Assembly (NCBI GenBank): GCA_030685015.1 | Contig: JAUXWS010000077.1 | Coordinates: 1-13,102 of the forward strand | Source: a bacterium | Lineage (GTDB): Bacteria > CAIWAD01 | Length of the DNA: 13,102 bases | Direction of reading: 5' to 3' | In this document: positions 1,171-12,471 of the stretch, in pieces | Position numbering within the stretch: the stretch's first letter is position 1 | Layout: every line of letters begins with the position of its first letter | Notes under the pieces: generated by a model | What the model was told of the DNA's origin: nothing | The model's input: only the letters and a program-made list of their open reading frames with translations | Databases searched by the model: none | Made by a program: the position numbers and the translations under genes

Positions 1171-2868
1171 CTAATGCGGCAAGGGCAGCAGGATGCGGAA
1201 GGCGGTGCCCCGCCCGGGGCGGCTCTGCACCTGGATGAGACCCTGGTGCGCCTCCACCACCTGGCGGACCAGAGGCATGCCCAGGCCCGTGCCCCCTTCG
1301 CCCTTGGTGGTGAAATAGGGCTCCCAGATGCGGGCCAGCACGGCCTCCTCCATGCCGCAACCGTTGTCCTCCACCACCAGGAGCAGATGCTGGCCGACCA
1401 GCCGCGTGCGGCACTGCACCCAGCCGCCGCCGCAAGCCTCCACGGCGTGGGCGGAGTTGATGAGCAGATTGAGCAGCATCTGTTGCAGCTGCTCGGCATC
1501 GGCCTTGATCTGGGGCAGGTGGGGCATCACGTCGAGCCGGATGCGAAGGGTGCCGCGGTCCTCGGACTCCGGCTCGGGGCCGCCCACGCTCAGGTCGAAG
1601 CGCTTGATCTTGCCACCCAGATCCTTGAGCAGGCTGACCGTGCCCGCCGCCAGGGCGTTGAGGTCCACGTCCCCCAACTGGCGCTGGGGCGGACGCGAGA
1701 GGTCGCTCAGGGTGCGGGCGATGCGCTCGATGCGGCCCGCCATCTCCTCGACGATCTGCAGGTCGGGATCCACATCCTCCTGGACGGAGGGCCGTTCGCG
1801 CAGGGTCATGCGCGCCAGCTGGACATGCCCGCTCAGGGGCGCCAGCGCGTTGCGGATCTCATGGGCGATGGATCCGGCCGTGCGGCTGACCATGGCGAAC
1901 TTCTCACTCTCGAGCAGCTCCTGCTGCATGCGCACCTCGGCCGTGACGTCGGACAGGATGAGGCCCCAGACCTGCTCGCTGCCGTCGGGGAAGGAGAGGG
2001 GGAAGGGCCGACACCGCAAGTGGCGGTTCTCCACCGCCCAGTCCGCGCTGCGCTCGTGGCGATCCATGCGGCTTTGCAGGAAGCGGCCGAAGGAGGACTC
2101 CAGCCTCCAGCCGGCCGGCGCCGCCGGGTCGGGCTCGACGATGGAGAGCATGCTCAAATCCCGGTGGAAGGGTTGGTTGGCAAACTGCAGGCGGAACTGC
2201 CGATCGTAGATGATGAGGGCGCTGGGCAGCGAGTCGACGATGCGCAGGTGGAGGCGCTCGAAGTTGTCATAGCGCAGCTGTTGGGCCTGTTCGGTGCGCC
2301 GCAGCTGGAGTTGCGTCAAGGTGAGGGAGCACAGCTCGCAGAAACCGTCCAGCAGCACGAGGATGTGCTCGCTGTAGAGGGTCGTGACCGAGCTGTCCAC
2401 GTAGAGGGCGCCCACGACCTGCCCCTGGCGGCGCAAGGGTGCGCAGAGGCTGCTCTTCAGGTCGAAATCGATGATGGAGCGGGCCTGGGCCAGTTCCTCC
2501 AATTGCGAAAGGTTGGAGGAGCGCAGGGGCTGGCCGCTTTCCAGGACGCGCCGGATGATGGAGTGGGAGGCCTGGGTCTCCGGCCGGTCCAGGGTGAAGC
2601 CGTCGCGGTCGACGCCCAGGGTGAAGAGCAGCTCCCCATCCTCGTCCAGTTCGACGATGGCGCCACGCTGGGCTCCCGCCAGGCGGATGGCCTGGTGCAG
2701 GAGGAAGTGCAGGGCTTCGCGCGGCGTGGTGCAGGTGTTCAGCTCGCGGGCCAGCCCCAGGACCAGGTCCAGTTCGCGCCGGGTGAAGCGCTCCTGGCGG
2801 CGGGAAAGATCCTCGGCCCGGCTCTCAAGCTCCTGTAGCGCGGCCAACTGATCCAGCAGTGCGGCCAT
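1171..2868 (-). CDS. GAF-PAS sensor histidine kinase, soluble
   Basis: This encodes 565 aa. An N-terminal coiled helix (1-30) leads to a GAF domain (about 31-187) with SHSIIRRVLESGQPL and SSLCAPLRRQGQVVGALYVD, closely resembling GAF domains fused to STPK-TPR proteins. A PAS domain follows (about 205-310, SALIIYDRQF), then HisKA with SIAHEIRN and phospho-acceptor His336. The HATPase has N box LLNLLINSAHAV (Asn467), DNGCGM (501-506), WEPYFTTK and GTGLGM (526-531), in NtrB style. I see no membrane segment or receiver. It should autophosphorylate on His336 and pass phosphate to a regulator not encoded here. The start is the second of two tandem ATGs, 4 nt after AGGAGG; the frame stays open upstream to 2931. 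It overlaps the Ser/Thr kinase gene by 44 nt and is last in that operon. The cytoplasmic ligand of the GAF/PAS domains is unknown. Confidence 0.88.
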   Translation of the reverse strand: MAALLDQLAALQELESRAEDLSRRQERFTRRELDLVLGLARELNTCTTPREALHFLLHQAIRLAGAQRGAIVELDEDGELLFTLGVDRDGFTLDRPETQASHSIIRRVLESGQPLRSSNLSQLEELAQARSIIDFDLKSSLCAPLRRQGQVVGALYVDSSVTTLYSEHILVLLDGFCELCSLTLTQLQLRRTEQAQQLRYDNFERLHLRIVDSLPSALIIYDRQFRLQFANQPFHRDLSMLSIVEPDPAAPAGWRLESSFGRFLQSRMDRHERSADWAVENRHLRCRPFPLSFPDGSEQVWGLILSDVTAEVRMQQELLESEKFAMVSRTAGSIAHEIRNALAPLSGHVQLARMTLRERPSVQEDVDPDLQIVEEMAGRIERIARTLSDLSRPPQRQLGDVDLNALAAGTVSLLKDLGGKIKRFDLSVGGPEPESEDRGTLRIRLDVMPHLPQIKADAEQLQQMLLNLLINSAHAVEACGGGWVQCRTRLVGQHLLLVVEDNGCGMEEAVLARIWEPYFTTKGEGGTGLGMPLVRQVVEAHQGLIQVQSRPGRGTAFRILLPLPH

Positions 2869-5800
2869 CATCCCTCCTATCGAGTTCATCCAGTCGGGCC
2901 AGGCATTCACCCGCCCTCTCCAGCATGACACGCAACCAGGGCGAGGAGGCCACCCGCTCCTGCCAGGCGGGTGACAGGTCCATGGCGAGGGACTCCAGCA
3001 GGCGCACGGCGCGTCCCAGCCGGATGCCGGCGGCGGACCAATCCTCGCGGCGGGCGGCCGATTCGCCCTCGTGGGAAAGCAGGCGGATCTCGTGCAGGCG
3101 GTGGATCTCCCGCACTTCGCGCAGACAGGGCGCCCATTCGGCGAGCCAGGGCAGCCGTCCCTCCAGCAAGCGCAGGGCGAGGCGCACGCCGTCCAGGCGC
3201 GGTTCCAGCCCCAACAAGGTGCTCAGCAGGTCGGCGGAGGCTGTTTCCCTCCCCGCGGCCAGGGCCCGGAGGGACGCGGGCGTATTGGCCGGCAGCCCGG
3301 CCGCACCGGTCGGCGACGCATCGAAAGCCGCCAGCAGGGCCCATTGCCGACTGGCGGCCTTGTCGCGCCCGGCATCGATCTCCTGGAGGCGGGCGAGGTG
3401 GCTGCGGGTCGGCTCGATCCCCAGGTCCCAAGCGAGACAGAGCAGGTTCTTGAGTGAATCCAACTCCTCGTCCGGCATTTGCAGGGCGCGGGCCAGGTCC
3501 AGCTCGCGCTCCCAGGTGGCCTCGGCGCTCTCCAGGTCCCCCAGGGCGGCCCAGGCTTCGCCCAGATGATCGAGGATGGCCAGTTCCGTCTGCATGACCT
3601 GCAGCTCCCGGGCCTGGACCAGGGCGGGCTCCAGCTCCCGGACGGCCTGGTCGGCGGCGCCCCGCTTCAGCTGCACCAAAGCCAGGTTGACGCGGGCCAT
3701 CAGCTCGTAGCGGTCCAGGTGGAAGAGGGCCGCCTCCCGGCCGGCCTGCTCCAGCTCGGTGCGGGCCTGCTCCAGGCGGCCAGCCTGCAAGTGGATGACA
3801 CCCAGGTTGTTGGCCAGCCAAATCCGCTGCTGGATCTGGAGGATCTGCCGGCCCGGCCGGCTGAGGTGGGTCCAGAGGCGGGCCGCCAACTCCGGTGAAC
3901 CCAGGTTGAATGCCGCCACTGCCGCCTGATGGATGGCGTGGGCGATGCCGGGTCCGCCGGCGGGATCCGCCTCCAGCAACAAGGGGGCCGCCGCCGTCAG
4001 CCGCGCGTTGGCCTCGGCGGCCCGGCCAATGCCCTGCAGCAGCTCGATCGCCTGCACCTCGAGGGCCAGACGGGACTTGTCCTCCCGGGCGAGTCGGCGG
4101 CCATGCTCCACCAGGCGCCAGGCCAGGCGGCGGCGCTGGCCGAGCCGCCAGGCGTGCGCCAGGCGGAGGACCAGCGAGGTGGAGCGCTCGGCGGAATCGG
4201 CGCCGGACTCCCGCAGAAGAGCCTTGAGGAGCTGGGCCGCCTCGGCGGCGCGGTCCTGTTCAAGGAGGGCGGTGGCCAGGTCCGACTGCAGGTCGCTCCG
4301 TTGTTCGGCCGGCAACAAGGGAAGCAGTTCGGTGATCAGCTGGATCTTTCGCTGCGGATTGATCAGGCCGCGGGCGCGCCGCAGGATCTGGTGCGCCATG
4401 TGGGGATCGGCCCGGCCCAGATCCGCCCGGGAGAGGAGGAGGAGGCCCAATTCGGCCGGCGGATCCGGGCGGCGCCAGAGGTCCTGGAGCAGGTCGAGGG
4501 TCGCCTGGCCCAACACATCCTCGTCCAGGCTCCCGATCAGACCGGCCCGGGGCACGAGCTGGCCATCGCCGCGGTCGCGCAGCCAGCCGGCGCCCTCCAG
4601 CATCTCCAGCTCGTCCTCGCGTCCCTGGCGGACCAGATCCTGCCAGCAGCCGATGGGGGCCGGCTCAACCCAGGCGCAGGCCCGCAGCAGGGCGTGGCGC
4701 AGCTTGCCATCCAGGGCGGCCAGATCCGCACCGCGCAGGTCCTCGCCCCGGGGTGGCCGGATCTCCGTCAGCCGCCACATCCCATCCGCGGGAGCCAGAC
4801 TGCCTTCGCTGATGCAGCGGGCCACCAGGGGTGCGATCCGCTCGCCGTCGCCGGCCGACAAGCGGTCCAGGACGTCGATGGCGGCATCCTCCAGCGTGAT
4901 GCCGGGCGTGGGGTGGCGCAGCCAGGCGCGCCACTGGCCACTCTGCGGAGGATCCAGCCGGTGCGTCTCGCCCAGGTCCAGGCCCGGCTCCGGGGCGCCA
5001 TCCAGCTGCAGGACGACGAGGGGACGGTGCTGGCGTCGGCAGGTCTCCACCAGCAAGGGAAGCTGGCGTGCGTCAGGATCCCCGGGCGGCACGATCCAGC
5101 ACAGGCCCTGGCGCGGCCGCTCCAGCTGGTCGTCCAGGAAGCCCAGCAACTGCCTCAGGATGTCGGGATCCGTCGTTCGGCGCGCCACGGCGCGGGCCAG
5201 CTCCGGATAGTGCGCCAGGAGTCCGCCCTCGTCCGCCCGGCAGGCCAGCCAGTCAAGCAGGGTCTGGCCGGGGACGCGCTCCACCTTCAGCATGGGCAGA
5301 GGCAGGCCCGCCTCCAGCAGCAAGTGATCCAGGCGGACGCGCCACTGCCCCGCTTGGCCGCTGCGCAGGAGAACCAGCTTCCCCTCCGACAGGCACTTCA
5401 GCACCTGGTCGAGCTGGGTCGGATCCCAGCTGCCCGGCCCACGGCGCGGCACAAGCAGCGCGGCCCGCTGGCGCGGCAGCTTCGGCAGCAGGCTGTCCAG
5501 GGCCTCCTGCGGGGAGGGCCGCCGGGCCGGATCGGCCTGCAGACAGCGCAGGGAGAGGGGGAAGAGAGGGTGCCCGGCCCCGGGACCGGGATCCTGCGGC
5601 CGTCCGGACAGGATCTGCGACAGGGCCGCGTCGGGGTCGTCCGGGAAGGGCGGCCGGCCCGTGATCAGTTGGAAGAGGAGGGCGCCCAGGGAGAACATGT
5701 CGGAGCGGGGATGGGGCAGGCCCTGGGCCAGGATCTCCGGCGGCATGACCTGGAAGGTGCCGGAGCGCCGGGCCACCCGGTCGTCATTGGCCCGGGCCAA

Positions 5801-6259
5801 GCCCAGGTCGAGCAGGGAGGCGCGGCTGCCCGACAGGAGGAGATTGGCCGGCCCGAGATCCCCGTGGATCCAGCCGTGTTCGGCCAACTCGGTCAGGCCC
5901 TGCAGCACCTGGACGGCGATCCACGCCACATCGTCGGGGTCCAGGCAGCGGCTGGTCTCCTCCAGGGCCGACATGGGTCGGCCCGGTCGCCGCTCGATGA
6001 CCAGGCGGGCGGGGCGCTGGGCGCTGCCCGGATCGTGCTCCACCAATTCAGGGAAGACGGGGGAGCGCAGGGCCAGCAAGAGGCGGGCCTCCTTGAGGAA
6101 GCCATGCCCACCCGCCGCTCCGGGGCGGGCCTCCTTCAGCACGACCTCGCGGCCGGTCCAGCGGTCCAGCGCGGCGTGGACGATGGCGCTGGACCCTTCG
6201 GCCAGCTGCTGCAGCCCCGTATAGCGCAAGTTTTCGCCGTCCCGGCCGGGGGAGTTCAT
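2825..6259 (-). CDS. Ser/Thr protein kinase with degenerate ATPase module and TPR repeats
   Basis: This encodes 1144 aa. The kinase domain spans about 12-265: Gly loop EGSSAIV (21-27), Lys42 in VVLKEA, helix-C Glu57, catalytic loop IHGDLGPANL (Asp134, Asn139), DLG (151-153), MPPEIL (172-177) and SDMFSLG. It is a non-RD (HGD) kinase whose catalytic-loop Lys is replaced by Gly136. Residues about 278-500 follow the layout of the AAA/STAND module of PknK-like kinases but lack a P-loop: LLRSGQAGQWRVRL (297-310) sits where GxxGxGKT is expected, and CWIVPPGDPD (387-396) where Walker B is. TPR-like helical pairs fill about 655-945, for example LANNLGVIHLQAGRLEQAR. No membrane segment is seen, so it is cytoplasmic. 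The ATG overlaps the phosphatase stop as ATGA. It probably phosphorylates Ser/Thr of unknown partners, with TPRs as the docking surface. The ordered C-terminal helix ends near residue 1131, exactly where the histidine kinase begins. Confidence 0.88.
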   Translation of the reverse strand: MNSPGRDGENLRYTGLQQLAEGSSAIVHAALDRWTGREVVLKEARPGAAGGHGFLKEARLLLALRSPVFPELVEHDPGSAQRPARLVIERRPGRPMSALEETSRCLDPDDVAWIAVQVLQGLTELAEHGWIHGDLGPANLLLSGSRASLLDLGLARANDDRVARRSGTFQVMPPEILAQGLPHPRSDMFSLGALLFQLITGRPPFPDDPDAALSQILSGRPQDPGPGAGHPLFPLSLRCLQADPARRPSPQEALDSLLPKLPRQRAALLVPRRGPGSWDPTQLDQVLKCLSEGKLVLLRSGQAGQWRVRLDHLLLEAGLPLPMLKVERVPGQTLLDWLACRADEGGLLAHYPELARAVARRTTDPDILRQLLGFLDDQLERPRQGLCWIVPPGDPDARQLPLLVETCRRQHRPLVVLQLDGAPEPGLDLGETHRLDPPQSGQWRAWLRHPTPGITLEDAAIDVLDRLSAGDGERIAPLVARCISEGSLAPADGMWRLTEIRPPRGEDLRGADLAALDGKLRHALLRACAWVEPAPIGCWQDLVRQGREDELEMLEGAGWLRDRGDGQLVPRAGLIGSLDEDVLGQATLDLLQDLWRRPDPPAELGLLLLSRADLGRADPHMAHQILRRARGLINPQRKIQLITELLPLLPAEQRSDLQSDLATALLEQDRAAEAAQLLKALLRESGADSAERSTSLVLRLAHAWRLGQRRRLAWRLVEHGRRLAREDKSRLALEVQAIELLQGIGRAAEANARLTAAAPLLLEADPAGGPGIAHAIHQAAVAAFNLGSPELAARLWTHLSRPGRQILQIQQRIWLANNLGVIHLQAGRLEQARTELEQAGREAALFHLDRYELMARVNLALVQLKRGAADQAVRELEPALVQARELQVMQTELAILDHLGEAWAALGDLESAEATWERELDLARALQMPDEELDSLKNLLCLAWDLGIEPTRSHLARLQEIDAGRDKAASRQWALLAAFDASPTGAAGLPANTPASLRALAAGRETASADLLSTLLGLEPRLDGVRLALRLLEGRLPWLAEWAPCLREVREIHRLHEIRLLSHEGESAARREDWSAAGIRLGRAVRLLESLAMDLSPAWQERVASSPWLRVMLERAGECLARLDELDRRDDGRTAGSVGRATGA
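2873..2878 (-). promoter_or_regulatory. Shine-Dalgarno for the histidine kinase, inside the upstream gene
   Basis: The minus strand reads AGGAGG, then G, then ATGATG. Spacing is 1 nt to the first ATG (2871-2869) and 4 nt to the second (2868-2866), which favours the second. This strong site lies within the last 20 codons of the Ser/Thr kinase gene, so the histidine kinase can be initiated separately and is probably coupled to upstream translation. Confidence 0.6.
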
Positions 6260-6984
6260 GCCTCGGTCTCCGGATTGATCCACACCAGACTCAGGTTGTC
6301 CTCCGCCCCGCGGCTGAGTGCCTCCTCCATGAGCAGGCCGGGAATGTCGTCGTCCCCGGTGGCGGACTGCAGCAGCTGGTCCAGGACCGTGGCCTCGATC
6401 CCGGCCTGGACGAAACCGTCGCTGCAGAGCAGCAAGCGGTCCCCCGCCTCCAGCCGCAGCTCCACGCAGCACAGCTGGTCGTGCTGGGGGGCGCCCAGGG
6501 CGTGGCTGAGCAGATTGGGCTGTTCAACGCTGACGTGATGGTCCGTGCTCAGTTGCCGGAAGCAGCCACCCGACACCAGGTAGGCGCGGCTGTCGCCCAC
6601 GTGGTAGAGCCGCCCTATCTGTCCGTCGAGGGCCAGGCCCGTGAAGGTGGTGGCCACCCGCCGCTCGCGCAGTTCGGCCTGAAGGCGGCCCAGGCAGCCC
6701 GCCAGCTCCAGCTGGACCCGCTGCAGGCTGGGCGGCCAGGCGGCGCTCAGGCAGCGCTCGTCGTGCAGGCAGAGCTGGATGAAGGCGTCGGCGGCGCGGC
6801 GGGCGGCCCGGTCGCCGTGTCGCATGCCACCCATGCCGTCGCAGAGGGCACAGGCCAGGCGCCCATCGCGAAATTCGCCTGCGGCCCAGTCCTCTGATTG
6901 TCGACGCACCCGACCGGGGTGCAAGCTTATGTGAAATCCAGGAGCCAGGAACCTCTCCTTCCCCGGGTGTGTCCGTGGCCGCAC
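6256..6984 (-). CDS. PP2C-family Ser/Thr protein phosphatase
   Basis: From the GTG at 6984 this is 242 aa, close to the usual 230-260 aa for stand-alone bacterial PP2C (PPM) enzymes. Metal-binding motifs appear in order: RRQSED (Asp32; the usual Asn before Glu-Asp is Ser), LCDGMGG (Asp49), HVGDSRAYLV, LCSDGF (Asp189) and EDNLSLV (Asp229). It should remove phosphate from Ser/Thr in a Mn/Mg-dependent reaction. The obvious counterpart is the kinase encoded next, joined by an ATGA overlap (6256-6259). The start is uncertain. A TTG at 7032 and this GTG lack Shine-Dalgarno sites, whereas AAGGAG (6955-6960) stands 6 nt before an in-frame CTG at 6948; that start would give a 230-aa protein beginning close to the first conserved strand. 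It is the first gene of the minus-strand signalling operon. Confidence 0.85.
   Translation of the reverse strand: MRPRTHPGKERFLAPGFHISLHPGRVRRQSEDWAAGEFRDGRLACALCDGMGGMRHGDRAARRAADAFIQLCLHDERCLSAAWPPSLQRVQLELAGCLGRLQAELRERRVATTFTGLALDGQIGRLYHVGDSRAYLVSGGCFRQLSTDHHVSVEQPNLLSHALGAPQHDQLCCVELRLEAGDRLLLCSDGFVQAGIEATVLDQLLQSATGDDDIPGLLMEEALSRGAEDNLSLVWINPETEA
6955..6960 (-). promoter_or_regulatory. Shine-Dalgarno-like AAGGAG near the phosphatase start
   Basis: The minus strand reads AAGGAG, then AGGTTC, then CTG (6948-6946) in the phosphatase frame. It is the only good ribosome binding site near the 5' end of this gene. Either a CTG start is used or the site is fortuitous and translation begins at GTG 6984 or TTG 7032. 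Confidence 0.35.
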
Positions 6985-7005
6985 GATGAGGGCGGCGAAG
7001 TCGAA

Positions 7006-7043
7006 CCAAGCGTTGATGAACAAAAGGATCAATCCATGCTTGG
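7006..7043. repeat. Imperfect inverted repeat in the divergent intergenic region
   Basis: CCAAGC (7006-7011) faces GCTTGG (7038-7043), and inside it GTTGAT (7012-7017) faces ATCAAT (7028-7033) with one mismatch or wobble; CCAT is inserted on the right side only. It lies between the phosphatase and pntAA genes, where an operator controlling one or both operons would be expected. It could also form an RNA hairpin in a minus-strand leader. No known operator consensus was recognised. Confidence 0.35.
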
Positions 7044-7135
7044 CTGGTGCGTCGCGAAGTCCGGGCGCCCAAGTCCGCGTCTTATCGGCAGATGGAGGGC
7101 CTGAATCGCGTTGCCGGGGGAAGTCGGGCGGCGAG

Positions 7136-7164
7136 TTGGGTCTTCGGGCCGCACCGCGTATTTT
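7136..7164 (+). promoter_or_regulatory. Weak promoter candidate for the pnt operon
   Basis: TTGGGT (7136-7141), a 17-bp spacer and TATTTT (7159-7164) match 3/6 and 4/6 of the sigma70 consensus. The element is placed 61 bp upstream of the pntAA ATG, in the only AT-rich spot of that leader. No good divergent promoter for the minus-strand operon was found in the same interval. Confidence 0.3.
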
Positions 7165-7224
7165 GAACCCCGTTCCACCTCGGAAGCGTCACGCGGAGAT
7201 GCCGCGCCACACACAGGAGACGCC

Positions 7225-8349
<1,125 letters not shown>

Positions 8350-8357
8350 GAGGAGCC

Positions 8358-8657
8358 ATGGACCTGCACACGATGGTCTACCTGATCTTCATTCTGTTGC
8401 TCTCGATCTTCCTGGGCTTCGAGCTGATCTCCAAGGTCCCCTCGACGCTGCACACGCCGCTCATGAGCGGTTCCAACGCCATCTCGGGCATCACCGTGGT
8501 GGGCGCCCTGCTCTCCGCCGGCTACGGGGGCAGCGACGTCCTCACCGTCGCCCTGGGCGCCCTGGCCGCCTTCTTCGCCATGATCAACGTGGTGGGCGGC
8601 TATCTGGTCACGGACCGCATGCTGTCCATGTTCCGCAGCAAGGGAGGCCGGTCGTGA
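8358..8657 (+). CDS. pntAB: NAD(P) transhydrogenase alpha-2 membrane subunit
   Basis: This encodes 99 aa with three hydrophobic helices (about 7-25, 35-57, 61-84), the standard size and topology of the separate alpha-2 subunit forming domain II with PntB. The conserved LHTPLMSGSNAISG stretch is at 31-44. Position 43 is Ser, whereas Thermus-type enzymes, as I recall, carry a proton-channel His here (NAIHG). The ATG follows AGGAGGAG (8348-8355), which overlaps the pntAA stop. Its own stop overlaps the pntB start as GTGA (8654-8657). Confidence 0.93.
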   Translation: MDLHTMVYLIFILLLSIFLGFELISKVPSTLHTPLMSGSNAISGITVVGALLSAGYGGSDVLTVALGALAAFFAMINVVGGYLVTDRMLSMFRSKGGRS

Positions 8658-10035
8658 GCCTGGAGTTCCTCATCAACCTGGCCTACGCCATCGCCGCCCT
8701 GCTCTTTGCCTTCGGCATCAAGATGCTGGCCTCGCCCACCACCGCCCGGCGGGGCAACGCCGTCAGCGCCGTGGGCATGGCCCTGGCCGTGGGCGCCACC
8801 CTGCTCGACCCGGCCATTGGCCGCTGGACCTGGATCATCGTGGGCCTGGCGGGCGGCGCCGTGGTGGGTGTCACCGCCGCCCGCACGGTGTCGATGACCG
8901 GCATGCCGGAAATGGTGGCCCTCCTGAATGGCTTCGGCGGCATCGCCAGCCTGATGGTGGCCTGGGCCGAATATGCGCGGGCCATGTCCAGCCAGACGGT
9001 CTTCGGCCTTTACCAATCCGTCACGGTGGCGATCGCGGCCCTGATCGGCGGCGTCACCTTCTCGGGGTCGCTCATCGCCTGGGCCAAGCTCAAAGAGGTG
9101 ATGTCGGGGCGCCCCATCATCTTCAGCGGACAGCAGGCCGTCAACGGCCTGCTCATCCTCGCCATCCTGGGCGCCGCCCTGCTCTTCGCGCTGGATCCCC
9201 CGGGCGCCCACCTCTGGCTGATCGTGCTTCTCGCCCTCTCCCTGGTCCTGGGCGTGATGGCCGTCATCCCCATCGGCGGGGCCGACATGCCCGTCGTCAT
9301 CTCGCTGCTCAATAGCTATTCCGGATTGGCGGCCTGCGCGGCGGGCTTCATCATCAGCAACAACGTGCTCATCGTGGCCGGCGCGCTGGTGGGCGCCAGC
9401 GGCATCGTGCTCACCGTCATCATGTGCAAGGCAATGAACCGCAGCCTGGCCAACGTGCTCTTCAGCGGCTTCGGCGCCGTTGTCCAGGGCGCCGCCAAGG
9501 CCAGCGGCGAGGTGAAGGCCCTCACGCCCGCGGACGCCTACATCCTGCTCGAAGCGGCCCAGAGCGTGGCCTTCGTGCCCGGCTACGGACTGGCCGTGGC
9601 CCAGGCCCAGCACGCCGTGCGGGAGCTGGGCGAGCTGCTGGAGAAGAACGGCTGCGAGGTGCGCTACGCCATCCATCCGGTGGCCGGCCGCATGCCCGGC
9701 CACATGAACGTGCTGCTGGCCGAGGCCAATGTCCCCTACGAGCAGCTAGTGGAGATGGAGGCGATCAACCCCTTGATGGAGACCGTGGACGTGGCGGTGG
9801 TGATCGGCGCCAACGACGTGGTCAACCCCGCCGCCCTGGACGACCCGGGCAGCCCCATCTACGGGATGCCCATCATCGAGGTGCACCGGGCCCGCACGGT
9901 CTTCGTGTTGAAGCGCTCCATGGCGGCCGGCTTCGCCGGCATCGACAACCCCTTGTTCTACGGGCAGAACACGCGCATGGTCTTCGGGGATGCCAAGGCG
10001 ACCATCACCAAGCTCGTGGCCGAGTTCAAGAGCGA

Positions 10036-10039
<4 letters not shown>
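8654..10039 (+). CDS. pntB: NAD(P) transhydrogenase beta subunit (membrane and NADP(H) domains)
   Basis: This encodes 461 aa, full length for PntB. Nine hydrophobic helices fill about residues 1-265. The soluble NADP(H)-binding domain III follows, with GYGLAVAQAQ (310-319), HPVAGRMPGHMNVLLAEA, VVIGANDVVNPAA, KRSMAAGFAGIDNPLF and a terminal helix after GDAK. It couples hydride transfer from NADH to NADP+ to inward proton movement and supplies NADPH. Start GTG 8654 overlaps the pntAB stop by 4 nt. In helix 3 the motif EMVALLNGFGG has Asn92 at the place of the E. coli beta-His91. The stop overlaps the downstream kinase start as ATGA. All domain III fingerprints look intact, so an active enzyme is expected. 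Confidence 0.95.

Positions 10040-12467
<2,428 letters not shown>

Positions 12468-12471
<4 letters not shown>

Follow-up and report, generated by a model that had tools for sequence, protein, structure and literature searches.

A Ser/Thr kinase gene and a histidine kinase gene that overlap in a CAIWAD01 bacterium, most likely a known architecture in split form

Where a Ser/Thr kinase (STPK) reading frame gives way to a histidine kinase (HK) in the +1 frame, does the DNA encode one hybrid protein, joined by frameshifting or broken by a sequencing error, or two separate genes? We addressed this question for a minus-strand locus on contig JAUXWS010000077.1 (assembly GCA_030685015.1, lineage CAIWAD01); the whole stretch of 13,102 nucleotides that was analysed is called the window below. 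The reading we prefer, with a probability of about 0.92, is a PP2C-STPK-HK operon translated as three separate proteins, in which HK initiates at its own Shine-Dalgarno sequence and the STPK and HK genes overlap. It draws on the ORFs, their domains, the positions of the signals and the split found in a relative. Most likely the locus consists of ordinary overlapping operon genes in an arrangement common to this distant relative, and amounts to a known architecture that is split into two genes.

Genes of the operon and their surroundings

The features of the locus are listed in Table 1. The stop codon of the PP2C gene overlaps the start codon of the STPK gene as ATGA. In the STPK protein a Pkinase domain was matched with an E-value of 3e-23, and weak matches to TPR were also obtained in Pfam. 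The kinase residues K42, E57, D134, N139 and D151 are kept, and the sequence reads HGDLGPAN where the usual form is HRDLKPxN; from the retained residues, kinase activity of STPK appears plausible. The initial annotation had also named an ATPase domain. This point needs correction: at the respective position (5300-5370, minus strand, residues about 298-318) the Walker A motif is lost and the sequence reads GQAGQWR, as compared to GPAGGGKS in the ortholog from G003, a genome of the same family but another genus. No Pfam AAA match was obtained for the window STPK, and AAA in the G003 protein was matched weakly. The two STPK proteins share 33% identity, with a match over the full length.

For HK, Pfam matches to HATPase_c, GAF, HisKA and PAS_4 were found, and both the phospho-acceptor motif AHEIRN and the ATP-binding motifs are retained. 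This STPK is the sole Pkinase-family match in the genome of the window, and G003 likewise contains one only; a lone Pkinase flanked by phosphatase and histidine kinase genes in both genomes suggests a dedicated pathway. STPK and PP2C could set the phosphorylation state of HK or of a shared partner, PP2C would reverse the action of STPK, and HK would pass the signal to a response regulator encoded elsewhere, since no response regulator gene is present in the operon. We infer that STPK, PP2C and HK may form one pathway.

Other genes are found on the plus strand of the window. A frame at 1-300 that runs off the contig start bears a resemblance to a group II intron reverse transcriptase, of which it would be the end (GHAFIRCADDCNVHVRS); it yielded no match in Pfam at 0.001. 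A probable pyridine nucleotide transhydrogenase operon (7111-10039) diverges from the PP2C gene; its first gene matches AlaDh_PNT_N/C in Pfam, the other two being identified by sequence reading only. It is followed at about 10040-12471 by a histidine kinase that carries multiple PAS domains and, at its C terminus, a receiver domain.

Table 1. Features of the PP2C-STPK-HK locus (positions in the window)
Feature	Coordinates	Strand	Details and basis
PP2C-type protein phosphatase ORF, first of the operon	6256..7032	-	Pfam PP2C_2 3.7e-9; start tentative
STPK gene: Pkinase, degenerate ATPase region (Walker A lost), TPR/helical repeats	2825..6259	-	1144 aa; ATG 6259 to TGA 2827-2825
HK gene: GAF-PAS-HisKA-HATPase	1171..2868	-	565 aa; +1 frame relative to STPK
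AGGAGG, proposed Shine-Dalgarno sequence of the HK gene, also two in-frame STPK Arg codons	2873..2878	-	Sequence and chance estimate
STPK/HK gene overlap, 44 nt	2825..2868	-	HK ATG 2868 to STPK TGA; sequence and codon scores

Coding switch and start of the histidine kinase gene

The geometry described in the initial annotation was confirmed: HK lies in the +1 frame of STPK, and ATG 2868 corresponds to STPK residue 1131. The interval 2825-2931 given there is where the longest ORFs overlap, with the HK ORF taken from GTG 2931; the best-supported start is ATG 2868. The HK frame is open upstream as far as a TGA at 3225, so that over about 400 bases neither frame is interrupted by a stop codon. In order to locate the change of coding frame, we trained a codon model with 400 kb sampled from the window's own genome; it placed the best switch point at 2880. 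Relative to this optimum, switching at ATG 2868 costs 1.4 log units, at GTG 2931 11.8 and at the end of the STPK ORF (2828) 15.3. From 3222 to 2869 the STPK frame scores +49.9 and the HK frame -51.3; from 2868 to 2828 the respective values are -6.8 and +7.1. The codon switch fixes the position of the event; by itself it fits two genes, a frameshift and an indel alike. The kinase had furthermore been described as helical up to about residue 1131; in an AlphaFold model, of low confidence overall (mean pLDDT 47), the last helix spans residues 1107-1132 and is followed by disorder.

The AGGAGG sequence that had been noticed just ahead of the frame switch was located at 2878-2873, beside the best switch point. 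It lies 1 nt ahead of ATG 2871 and 4 nt ahead of ATG 2868. The pattern AGGAGG-N3-9-ATG occurs 52 times in 800,000 strand-bases, a rate of about 0.0005 for each 24-nt zone and frame, and is so infrequent that its placement at the coding switch by chance is unlikely. The 3′ end of the 16S rRNA was not found in the assembly (a pattern match sits inside a protein gene), and the anti-Shine-Dalgarno sequence was therefore assumed. We infer that HK initiates at ATG 2868, or at the adjacent ATG 2871, via this strong Shine-Dalgarno sequence within the last STPK codons. Ribosomes translating STPK would traverse and expose the HK start site, so STPK and HK are probably translationally coupled, as the overlap indicates. 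The final ~13 residues of STPK would then be a by-product of the overlap.

With the HK start codon and ribosome-binding site inside the STPK gene and the coding switch at the same place, the two genes show the features of an overlapping pair. Among close same-strand pairs counted with a simple home-made gene model (n = 273), starts and stops overlapped in 108; overlaps of 2-7 nt accounted for 55 of the 273, those of 1 nt for 18 and those of 30-60 nt for four. Overlaps are thus common in this genome, but rare at lengths of 30-60 nt. The phase -8, -11, -14 and so on is reported to be the commoner one when overlaps are long (PMC10666635), and the STPK/HK overlap of -44 belongs to it.

Relatives and rival explanations

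Whether orthologous loci are fused or split had been proposed as a check, and the pair is split in G003, the sole relative found with it. Conserved split genes in relatives had also been named as what would refute frameshifting, and in this one relative they are present. G003 carries PP2C, STPK and HK genes in identical order, divided at the same boundary, with the junction TGATG (STPK TGA at 170874-170872, HK ATG at 170872) and HK in the -1 frame. The HK proteins of the window and G003 are 39% identical and align without gaps from Met1; the score of residues 2-30 was matched by only 39 of 20,000 shuffles, and no similarity between the two genomes was seen over the 30 codons upstream of the HK start, read in the HK frame. 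Outside this pair, a relative of HK occurs alone behind a RarA-like gene in G004, a more distantly related genome labelled Candidatus Delongbacteria, in which no Pkinase match was found (this genome is only 67% complete). An ortholog of the STPK-HK pair was not found in two same-genus genomes. A match on contig C38 of G002 was considered as a same-genus ortholog and rejected, as it proved to be another kinase, truncated and carrying WD-like repeats. When the genome contigs were scanned with an HK profile, near-full-length matches came only from G003 and G004, the relatives already known, and conservation of the split rests on two genomes, the window and G003. A short ORF behind the G003 HK gene was considered as a response regulator and rejected, since it reads through short repeats; directly behind this gene we observed a short repeat in two copies (L031, 3764-4129), read as SGRPLQGRLTGRCPMNQTIGQRSAIVAICIT.

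A programmed or facultative +1 frameshift at AGG_AGG_G, or one stimulated by an internal Shine-Dalgarno sequence as in prfB, could in principle yield a fused STPK-HK protein, either as the only product or together with the two separate proteins. Right at the switch the STPK frame reads AGG AGG, a +1 shift there enters the HK frame, tandem AGG is reported to shift +1 in E. coli (Spanjaard and van Duin 1988, as cited in PMC6456624), and the fused domain order is known in other genomes. Of the features of a tandem-AGG shift site, the window thus has the in-frame AGG AGG before the +1 frame; scarce decoding and conservation of the site were not found. AGG is not very rare here (usage of 6.4 per thousand codons in the 400 kb sample), a tRNA-Arg(CCU) gene is present in the genome, and at 12 other in-frame AGG-AGG sites frame 0 exceeds the +1 frame in coding score. 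In G003 AGG AGG is absent and HK is reached in the -1 frame behind TGATG. The prfB-like shift proposed in the initial annotation fared no better. The cassette of release factor 2 consists of CUU followed by UGA (PMC5009743), and what it has in common with the window is a Shine-Dalgarno-like sequence ahead of a +1 frame change. However, there is no CUU_UGA at the window junction, nor does a stop codon stand at the shift position: after AGGAGG the STPK frame continues with GAT GAT GGC CGC, its stop begins 45 nt past AGGAGG, and a normal start codon follows at proper spacing from the Shine-Dalgarno sequence. We therefore regard frameshifting as improbable. The same low likelihood is given to a minor share of ribosomes shifting +1 at AGG_AGG_G, with a fused hybrid made beside the two separate kinases; if this were true, a single locus would yield both split and fused signalling proteins.

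A sequencing error, in which an indel in the contig would have disrupted one fused gene, had been named as a further explanation. The window is the entire contig of a fragmented 105-contig draft assembly, and fused architectures exist in other genomes, which would fit such an error. However, an indel would not set AGGAGG-N4-ATG at the switch, and G003 is split independently at the same boundary in another frame, which makes a sequencing or assembly error very improbable. Equally slight is the chance that a fused dual kinase underwent recent fission in this genome alone and that both proteins are its broken remnants. Fused proteins of the same domain order in other lineages and the loss of Walker A in the window STPK would agree with it, but both ORFs are intact over their full length, and the split at the same boundary in G003, at 33-39% identity, implies that any fission is old. 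Split genes with independent initiation of HK, the other option that had been offered from the start, are what AGGAGG-N4-ATG at the coding switch and the split in G003 support, and with this reading one candidate frameshift gene is dropped from consideration.

Comparison with known systems

The window pair encodes the domain order STPK, TPR, GAF, PAS, HisKA, HATPase, cut between TPR and GAF. The earlier claim that single chains elsewhere unite STPK, ATPase, TPR, GAF and an output module is borne out by proteins from other genomes that combine STPK, AAA_16, TPR or another middle part, GAF and an output, and by a published description (PMC1262709). The output is a histidine kinase in L154, a sigma54 module in L152, L153 and L155, and a SpoIIE phosphatase in L150. 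The proteins with sigma54 or SpoIIE output share with the window the order STPK, ATPase (in the window a degenerate region), TPR/helical middle and GAF; they differ in being single chains with an output module other than a histidine kinase. A plasmid protein search for fused relatives returned kinase-domain matches only. In an unrelated genome we observed another split STPK/GAF pair (L046, 4363-8440, plus strand), in which a TPR-Ser/Thr kinase ORF ends at 6738 and a GAF-nucleotide cyclase-like ORF starts at 6740.

As a pair of overlapping genes, STPK and HK can be compared with translationally coupled pairs (PMC6728339, PMC10666635), which are same-strand operon genes, as are those joined by ATGA (PP2C-STPK) and by TGATG (STPK-HK of G003). 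The usual coupled overlaps measure 4 or 1 nt, whereas that of STPK and HK in the window is 44 nt and comes with a strong Shine-Dalgarno sequence of its own.

Dual STPK-HK proteins have been reported from cyanobacteria and a few other bacteria (PMC1262709). In these HstK-type dual kinases (Nostoc/Anabaena and others) the Ser/Thr kinase is followed by GAF, PAS and histidine kinase, as in the window. They are, however, one chain, whereas the window carries two genes with their own starts and stops, an ATPase region minus Walker A and a PP2C gene ahead; its kinases lie in two frames, and they are split in G003 too. The fused comparator L154 consists of STPK, AAA_16, a long middle, GAF, HisKA and HATPase, in the same order as the window for the domains matched there. 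In a profile comparison its kinase domain and its GAF-HK part align with the window pair and the middle does not. Homology is thus supported for these two parts and not for the middle, and we regard the locus as a two-gene counterpart to the fused Ser/Thr-His dual kinases, not as a member of the dual-kinase family. In such a split form, possible action of the Ser/Thr kinase in trans on the histidine kinase becomes a question that can be posed.
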